From positions 1-64,000 of the forward strand of contig JAHBWI010000004.1 of assembly GCA_019637075.1 (NCBI GenBank): a stretch of 64,000 nucleotides of DNA, in the 5' to 3' direction. The notes beneath the pieces are model-generated. The model saw only the letters and a list, made by a program, of their open reading frames with translations. It ran no database searches and had not been told where the DNA came from. A program made the position numbers and the translations under genes. This DNA is from Nitrospiraceae bacterium. Lineage in GTDB: Bacteria > Nitrospirota > Nitrospiria > Nitrospirales > Nitrospiraceae. Positions 43,601-45,148 of the stretch are shown piece by piece (position 1 is the first letter of the stretch; each line of letters begins with the position of its first letter).

Positions 43601-43856
43601 GTCGGAGCTGGATACGACCGCACGAGACATAGCGGCGATACTCATCGCCTGAGAGGTAGCCGGTTCCTCCGAGGAATCGATGGCCCAGGCGGACCGTCTC
43701 CTCGAAGGGAAGGTATTCGAGGCTGTGTAACGGATTGTGGTGGACGAAGGTGCGCATCGGCCAGTATTGGGCGATGACTTCGCTCGCAAGGCGAATCGTC
43801 CCGCGTAACTCCATCCGGCGGGCTTCGATATCGGCGGTCTGGTTCAGCGGGTCCAT
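40611..43856 (-). CDS. dabA: DabA inorganic-carbon accumulation subunit (DUF2309)
   Basis: The ATG at 43856 (AAGGGAG upstream) gives 1081 residues. The zinc/carbonic-anhydrase-like residues of DabA are all visible: C492-x-D494 in VFCIDVRSE, and H765 and C780 in [23 protein letters not shown]. The C-x-D and 15-residue H-to-C spacings equal those of Halothiobacillus DabA. DabA with the membrane subunit DabB hydrates CO2 to bicarbonate in an energy-coupled manner. The gene overlaps the NuoM/N-like gene by 13 bases. The protein is longer than the Halothiobacillus homologue. Confidence 0.95.
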   Translation of the reverse strand: [1081 protein letters not shown]

Positions 43857-45148
43857 GCCGCTCCCTTCATCGCAATGTTTGGCGATGCCGGCGCGACGCT
43901 CCATCCGAATACTCGGGCCGGGGCCGTTCCCAGAACCAGGAGGAGGAGCAACACGATCACCAGCGACGCCACCTCATGGTTGCGCAGGTCGGCATAGGGA
44001 ATCCCGCTTCGTTGCGGACCGAACACGAGCTGTTGGAGCGGCGCGAGCAGATACCAGGAAGCGGAGAGCCAGGCCAAGATGATCAGGAAGAAGCTGGCCC
44101 CTACCGAGAATGTCGGATCGAACAGCAGTCCCATGAATCCGGTGAAGACGCCGAAGGGCGGCATGCCGAGCGCGGCCAGCGTCAGCAGTACGAACAGCGT
44201 GCTGAAGCGGGGCATCGGATAGGCCATCCCGCCGAGCGCCCGCGGGTCGATGTCGCCGTATCGCACGCGAACGGCATACCAGGCGAGCAGCAGCCCCGTC
44301 ATCGCCAACCCGCAAGCAGACAGGTAGACGGCTGACTGTGGACCAACCGACCCGGTCGTTCCAATTACCCACCAGAGCAAAGACGTAAAGGCTAGGCTTC
44401 CGTAGGCCAGCAGCGGCAGCGTCCGCACCAGCGTCAAAGACCGAAGAGACCCGTACAAGGCACCCGCAAGGCCCAGAACCTGGACGGTTCCCAGCAGACT
44501 GGGATCGAGATCAGGCAGCAGCGGCAGGAGCTGATGGAATCCCACCACCGGGAGCGCCAGCGCTAGGAACGCGGGGAGATTGCCCGGCAGTGCGGTGAGC
44601 GTCGCGATCTGTCCTGCATGCAACGGGAGCAACGGCAGCAGCGTTCCGCTGGCAACCAGGCCTGCGACCATTCCGGCACCGCCCGGAATCAGGAGGGCGG
44701 CCGCGCCGGCCGCCATGCCGACTCCATAGCTGACCAGGCCGCGTAGCATCGTCGGCGCGGCACTGCCGAAACGTCGAATGCCCAAGGCCACGACGGCCAA
44801 GAGACCGATCCGCACAAGTTGCCGTGCCGACTCGGAGGCGACCAGGGAGCCAAGCGTCAATCCAAGGAGCAAGAGGGTCAGTACCCAAGCGGTGCGGTTG
44901 TCGCGGTGGATCGGTTGGCCGAGCAACGAGATGAACGCCGTCAGGGGCAGCAGGCACAGGAAGAGCGCGCTGCCGGGTAGATCACTCTGCCACCAGGCGG
45001 CTCCGGCATTGACCAGGAGGCTGGTTCCCGTCACGACTAATGCGGCTGCACGCAGGCGCTCGGCGTCGGACCAAAAGAGAAGGCTGACGGCCGCGCCCAC
45101 GCAGGGCAGCGCCGCCACGATCCACGGCAGCAACGACAGGCCCGTCAT
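43844..45148 (-). CDS. NuoM/N-like membrane subunit between dabB and dabA
   Basis: A 434-residue integral membrane protein with about twelve hydrophobic segments, fused by ATGA overlap to dabB and overlapping dabA by 13 bases. The middle (LLPLLPLHAGQIATLTALPGNLPAFLALALPVVGFHQLLP, then RTLPLLAYGSLAF) aligns by eye with the LPDAH...LLK..Y..LR and IKRLIAY regions of antiporter-like complex I subunits. However, both lysines of those regions are replaced. It is probably a structural, non-pumping paralogue. Two-component Dab systems lack this gene; the alignment is manual. Confidence 0.75.
   Translation of the reverse strand: MTGLSLLPWIVAALPCVGAAVSLLFWSDAERLRAAALVVTGTSLLVNAGAAWWQSDLPGSALFLCLLPLTAFISLLGQPIHRDNRTAWVLTLLLLGLTLGSLVASESARQLVRIGLLAVVALGIRRFGSAAPTMLRGLVSYGVGMAAGAAALLIPGGAGMVAGLVASGTLLPLLPLHAGQIATLTALPGNLPAFLALALPVVGFHQLLPLLPDLDPSLLGTVQVLGLAGALYGSLRSLTLVRTLPLLAYGSLAFTSLLWWVIGTTGSVGPQSAVYLSACGLAMTGLLLAWYAVRVRYGDIDPRALGGMAYPMPRFSTLFVLLTLAALGMPPFGVFTGFMGLLFDPTFSVGASFFLIILAWLSASWYLLAPLQQLVFGPQRSGIPYADLRNHEVASLVIVLLLLLVLGTAPARVFGWSVAPASPNIAMKGAAWTR

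Follow-up and report, generated by a model that had tools for sequence, protein, structure and literature searches.

A NuoM-fold gene between dabB and dabA suggests a three-part CO2 pump in Nitrospira and related autotrophs

Dab pumps provide widespread CO2 acquisition outside cyanobacteria, and the solved structure that we found is two-part; what might a further membrane gene contribute when it lies between dabB and dabA? We addressed this question in a stretch of 64,000 nucleotides from a Nitrospiraceae bacterium (contig JAHBWI010000004.1, assembly GCA_019637075.1), hereafter the window, where the third Dab gene, called DabC here, and its neighbors were annotated as follows.

45145 to 46848, minus strand: dabB, NuoL-like proton-channel subunit (PF00361 at 3e-47, PF00662 at 6e-13; PDB 9rd0_B, DabB2, at 2e-35)
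43844 to 45148, minus strand: dabC, the third Dab gene, translated into 434 residues, a membrane protein of predicted NuoM fold without proton-channel residues
40611 to 43856, minus strand: dabA, vectorial carbonic anhydrase subunit (PF10070 at 3e-266; aligned to DabA2, 9rd0_A)
40226 to 40567, minus strand: P-II-like gene directly after dabA (PF00543 at 7e-22)
39777 to 40046, minus strand: small conserved gene of 89 residues downstream of the P-II-like gene, no family
47306 to 47668, plus strand: mpsC, divergent, beside the cluster (PF10057 at 5e-36)
47691 to 48317, plus strand: beta-carbonic anhydrase, downstream of mpsC (PF00484 at 2e-47)

The transcription order on the minus strand is dabB, dabC, dabA, the P-II-like gene, and the 89-residue gene. 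With the dabB stop ending at 45145 and the ATG of dabC at 45148, these two genes overlap by 4 nt; the dabC stop ends at 43844 with the dabA ATG at 43856, giving a 13-nt overlap. These start and stop positions confirm the 4- and 13-base overlaps by which an earlier note on this DNA had joined the three genes, and the overlaps recur in relatives.

The 80 dabC loci kept for comparison came from scanning the 84,980 species of genome_contigs, and the order dabB-dabC-dabA was found in 80/80 wherever the contig reaches both flanks; 4 loci are cut by contig ends, L150 and L165 lacking dabA and L175 and L176 lacking dabB. Of 75 loci, 52 have the -13 overlap between dabC and dabA and most others have -4; between dabB and dabC, about half have -4. 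Within this set, the P-II gene follows dabA in most complete loci, mpsC adjoins dabB in most relatives, and a beta-carbonic anhydrase gene lies beside the cluster in a minority. Many Nitrospira Dab clusters keep the 89-residue gene after P-II, and it matches no known family. Nitrospira or Nitrospirota names are carried by 79 of the 80 loci, 2 of which are labelled Nitrosospira and are probably mislabelled enrichment MAGs, and the remaining locus comes from a Myxococcota MAG labelled Deltaproteobacteria (L194). Across 247 genomes of that phylum, only the genome of L194 scores as DabC (397 bits), with other matches reaching 73-95 bits with the profile and resembling complex I NuoM by length and score; the isolation of this fused DabB-DabC cluster suggests lateral transfer or a binning error.

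A DabC match of 73 bits or more was seen in 95 of 296 Nitrospirota genomes, nearly all of which also have DabA, with complex I NuoM reaching at most about 50 bits in the DabC search. Identity to the window protein is 31-56% across many Nitrospirota families, with 27 invariant positions, and an internal stop was seen in just 1 strong match of the survey (G237). A second family of the same order, putatively Leptospirillum, carries a diverged version of dabC (L081-L084 and L100). The plasmids searched for DabC gave no match.

In seven Nitrospirota genomes (L070, L071, L072, L074, L077, L079, and L080) and in L194, dabB and dabC form one reading frame, and an eighth Nitrospirota fusion (L073) is cut by a contig end. 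The fusion products are 870-970 residues long, and the DabC match starts at about residue 127-167, leaving roughly TM7-14. The TM7-14 half is also better conserved in DabC (mean majority residue 0.66 vs. 0.54). In the DabA tree, made with a quick method and SH-aLRT support only, the closest rows are named Nitrospira (best identity 76%), which places the window in the Nitrospira group, the fusion rows form one group (98) inside a DabC-bearing clade of 37 rows (99), and the DabC-less dabB-dabA paralogues fall with a set of orphan dabA genes in a clade of 24 (100). Depending on where the Leptospirillum-like clade is placed, the tree is compatible with one gain of dabC plus a loss and with two gains. 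The genome's other Dab locus (L062; G000:C1:622000-641000), a dabB-dabA-PII cluster without dabC, falls in the clade of 24; the DabB group to which it belongs has His at the E144 site and Gly or Ser at the R175 site. A long DabA was rejected as a marker of DabC, since the DabC-less paralogues also have a DabA of about 1100 residues.

Two further arrangements were seen in Nitrospira. About 16 loci (L140, L143, L146, L147, L151, L155, L157, L159, L160, L164, L181, and others) have two tandem dabB genes before dabC and dabA; the tandem DabB pairs compared are 70-81% identical with channel residues intact in both, and the pumps of these loci may in some cases be four-part. Further, dabA genes with no dabB found beside them occur at L221:15965-19441 and L236:5959-9195 and in L228, L229, L231, L234, and L105. 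The orphans of L221 and L236 lie directly after a cysH-like PAPS/APS reductase gene, and orphan dabA genes form a DabA clade of their own.

The Pfam match of DabC to PF00361 (E 3e-5, 23.8 bits) is barely above the cut-off of 21.5, the NCBIfam NuoM model matches residues 206-417 at 66.9 bits (1e-18), far below the cut-off of 263.8, and E. coli NuoM in PDB is matched at 8e-10. AlphaFold2, run on an alignment of 53 window and locus sequences, predicted 14 helices (pLDDT 86.5, pTM 0.88) with a split TM7 (157-170/178-186) and a split TM12 (313-326/333-342), so that the model has the 14 TM helices and discontinuous TM7 and TM12 of the antiporter-like fold. The best structural matches of this model are ND4/NuoM subunits (Z 39.5, rmsd 2.5, 414 residues), with NdhD3 of NDH-1MS also among the matches (Z 38.7), and Foldseek agrees. 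The sequence match to NuoM is weak in the N-terminal half; the predicted fold is nonetheless whole. With NuoM, ND4, and NdhD, the modelled DabC shares the 14-helix fold with broken TM7 and TM12 and a C-terminal half that aligns with few gaps, but it lacks the TM7 Lys, TM8 Lys, TM12 Glu, and channel His and has a shorter N-terminal half. Moreover, DabC is encoded with dabA, whereas NuoM is encoded with nuo genes, and the nuoM genes of the same genome lie on other contigs. DabC falls below the NuoM cut-off and lies outside a nuo operon, and without the proton-channel residues it is, on the predicted model, a relative of NuoM in fold only. In an apparent 2M complex I operon (G000:C6 about 105-107 kb, L113), one NuoM has lost the TM7 Lys (GFASIAPLWPLH) and keeps the TM5 Glu, TM8 Lys, and TM12 Glu.

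Channel positions were set by profile alignment to NuoM (hhalign, phmmer) and counted in 126 DabC homologues. The profile alignment of DabC to the genome's own NuoM/L/N was unambiguous at the TM7, TM10, and TM12 sites, and the alignment to E. coli NuoM agrees. The corresponding codons of dabC are listed below.

44639 to 44641, minus strand: codon 170, Leu, at the NuoM TM7 Lys site (E. coli K234); Leu 115, Met 4, Ala 3, Phe 3, Ile 1 in the 126, no Lys
44549 to 44551, minus strand: codon 200, Pro, at the NuoM TM8 Lys site (K265); Pro 121, Leu 5 in the 126
44417 to 44419, minus strand: codon 244, Leu, at the TM10 'IKR' Lys site; Arg in 73/126 relatives
44135 to 44137, minus strand: codon 338, Phe, at the NuoM TM12 Glu site (E407); Phe 102, Leu 17, Tyr 5, Ile 2 in the 126

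None of the 126 homologues keeps the TM7 Lys, TM8 Lys, or TM12 Glu, the replacements being non-polar or Tyr, and the sites of the NuoM TM10 and TM11 channel histidines hold mainly Phe (254) and Ala/Ser (278). The TM12 core has zero charge in 126/126 sequences and the TM7a core is charge-free in 120/126; over the TM7a, TM7b, TM12a, TM12b, and TM14 cores, the charge-free share is at least 95% of sequences. Conserved charged positions include Lys/Arg236, Arg242, Arg296, Asp299, Asp301, Arg380, Asp387, and Glu392, mostly near helix ends. The loss of the channel lysines, read by eye in the earlier note, thus holds on profile alignment for the window protein (Pro200 and Leu244), but at TM10 the loss of positive charge is not family-wide, because so many homologues have Arg there. 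The losses of the TM7 Lys and TM12 Glu are additions to that note, as are the minus-strand assignment, the fusions, and the tandem dabB variants. We also looked for two findings named in advance as speaking against the claim, channel lysines being present and the gene failing to recur beside dabA, and found neither: the gene recurs between dabB and dabA in all 80 loci, and no homologue has the TM7 or TM8 Lys.

The other two subunits retain their functional residues. DabB keeps the IKK lysine previously ascribed to it (NDIKK), and the equivalents of NuoL K229, H254, K305, H334, H338, and K342 are kept in every row with letters there. In DabA, the zinc site (Cys-Asp-Arg, His, Cys) and the finger Glu (Glu444 in DabA2) are intact in the alignment to DabA2 (9rd0_A). 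The roles of the zinc ligands, the finger Glu, and the DabB channel residues have been described (PMC13144422). The operon has these DabA residues along with NuoL-type channel residues in DabB, and we class it as a variant of the known DAB/DAC pumps and do not class DabC as a NuoM.

In complex I, the TM7-14 half of NuoM is the half that meets NuoL, and TM5-6 of NuoL form the face that meets NuoM. Comparison of 47 DabB rows with DabC and 16 without it gave 16 positions that separate the two kinds of system, with 6 of 13 eligible positions in TM5-6 vs. 10 of 160 elsewhere (Fisher P 3e-4, uncorrected for phylogeny and with regions picked after seeing the list). Among these sites are Gln141, at the E144 site, where DabB from systems without DabC has His, and Arg171, at the R175 site, where it has Gly/Ser; the ion pairs of NuoL around E144 and R175 lie near the membrane-subunit interface in complex I (PMC13144422). 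Arg at the R171 site is not exclusive to DabC systems, as DabB2 has R182 and no DabC. Because the fusions keep roughly TM7-14 and the DabB differences cluster on TM5-6, a NuoM-like docking of DabC on DabB is suggested; the docking face is one that we infer, since the AlphaFold2 model of the natural DabB-DabC fusion of L194 (pLDDT 57.5, pTM 0.48) is too poor to interpret.

The premise that Dab pumps consist of DabA plus DabB, from which the earlier note had started, holds for DAB2 and is otherwise incomplete, as a third subunit has been described for DAB1 (PMC13144422) and a 2017 study pointed out NuoM-like genes in the vicinity of ybcC/dabA (PMC5700660). DAB2 of H. neapolitanus (DabA2-DabB2, PDB 9rd0; PMC13144422) has homologous DabA and DabB and shares the zinc ligands, finger Glu, and DabB channel residues with the window operon; however, the DAB2 heterodimer has no large membrane protein as a third subunit, whereas the window operon has the dabC gene. 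DAB1 of the same organism (DabA1, DabB1, Hneap_0908) is also called three-subunit (PMC13144422), but by description its third member is a hypothetical membrane protein of small size. In COGNAT (PMC5700660), a NuoM homologue (COG1008) was noted for the ybcC loci of 'clade C', and P-II for those of 'clade B'. In clade C, dabA is upstream of the NuoL homologue and SulP genes are reported (PMC5700660), whereas dabA is the last of the three genes in dabC loci, whose layout is that of clade B, with dabA downstream and P-II last. Clade C was rejected as the DabC family because the NuoM-like proteins of clade C-order loci (L104 and L233), and of L103, keep the TM5 Glu, TM7 Lys, TM8 Lys, and TM12 Glu. 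The locus L104:3257-14055 represents a different Dab type, in which dabA is followed by three antiporter-like genes, MrpD/NuoN-like, NuoL-like, and NuoM-like, the NuoM-like one with intact channel residues. MpsABC of Staphylococcus aureus consists of DabB/DabA homologues plus mpsC, and the window has a divergent mpsC beside the cluster, but MpsC (PF10057) and DabC are different proteins. In the passages found by our literature search, neither 'DabC' in connection with inorganic carbon nor a tie between Dab and Nitrospira appeared, and those passages held no published name or description of the DabC subunit.

Invariant gene order, conserved overlaps, natural fusions, an intact predicted NuoM fold, and family-wide loss of channel residues give good support to a third Dab subunit that is proton-incompetent. 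To this extent the three-part Dab complex with an extra NuoM/N-like subunit, as first proposed, is supported; its structural or gating role we infer. In our judgment, DabC probably belongs to a DAB-type vectorial carbonic anhydrase as a true third membrane subunit, proton-incompetent and docked NuoM-style on DabB as a scaffold or gate. Its TM7-14 half would lie on the TM5-6 face of DabB, in the way that NuoM docks on NuoL, and DabC would carry no protons. The proton path would run through DabB and the DabA 'finger' Glu, DabA would be the CO2-hydrating enzyme, and DabC would stabilize or gate the ion-pair region of DabB (Q141, R171, and neighbors in the window), in the manner of an idle NuoM fixed to an active NuoL. 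Counting against DabC as a subunit are DAB2, which works without one (PMC13144422), and the second dabB-dabA cluster of this genome, which has no dabC; His205 (105/126) and the TM10 Arg (58%) also make another proton route through DabC possible. A replacement by DabC of the missing periplasmic half-channel of DabB was rejected as the best reading, as TM12 of DabC is charge-free and DabA keeps the finger Glu.

The main rival to the scaffold or gate is a CO2 conduit, in which the emptied, non-polar channel of DabC would be a gas path bringing membrane-dissolved CO2 to DabA; by analogy this is conceivable, yet we regard it as rather unlikely. The same design is seen in NDH-1MS (NdhF3-NdhD3-CupA; PMC6981117), where a carbonic anhydrase is likewise mounted on a pair of antiporter-like subunits, of which one has a non-polar channel. 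In NdhF3, non-polar residues replace charged channel elements, and CO2 diffuses through the subunit in simulation (Schuller 2020, PMC6981117). However, NDH-1MS is a redox-driven complex I with another carbonic anhydrase module, and its emptied subunit is of NuoL type, whereas DabC is of NuoM type. The uncharged TM7 and TM12 cores, in 120 to 126 of the 126 DabC sequences, fit a conduit, but a plain scaffold would show non-polar replacement too, and DAB2 takes up CO2 without DabC, via tunnel T1 inside DabA (PMC13144422). A doubtful extension, which we rate no higher than the conduit itself, is that DabC became a CO2 duct from a proton pump beside a working proton subunit, independently of cyanobacterial NdhF3, yielding a high-affinity three-part CO2 pump in Nitrospirota.

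Less likely again is residual transport of an ion or proton by DabC along a rearranged route through His205, Lys/Arg236, Arg242/244, and Arg294/296. Strong conservation is seen at His205 in TM8 and at basic residues around 236, 242, and 294-296, but the helix boundaries of the model would place these basic residues near helix ends, the cores listed above are nearly always charge-free, and Phe and Ala/Ser occupy most of the former channel His sites. The tight overlaps suggest translational coupling and would suit an assembly or membrane-insertion factor co-translated with DabB and absent from the mature complex, but in a whole lineage fusion to DabB retains DabC in the product, and we consider such a factor improbable. 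Least credible is a decaying, functionless former pump subunit: the loss of channel residues taken alone would agree with decay, but the gene is kept across many Nitrospirota families (31-56% identity, 27 invariant positions) with an intact predicted fold and conserved overlaps.

The gene order and residue patterns described here suggest a three-part CO2 pump in Nitrospira and related autotrophs. If DabC is a conserved third subunit, nitrite-oxidizing and comammox Nitrospira and the Leptospirillum-like sister family would carry it, and important nitrifying autotrophs would use a different machine. DabC would also offer a natural test of an antiporter-like subunit stripped of its proton residues, and of whether emptied channels become gas paths.
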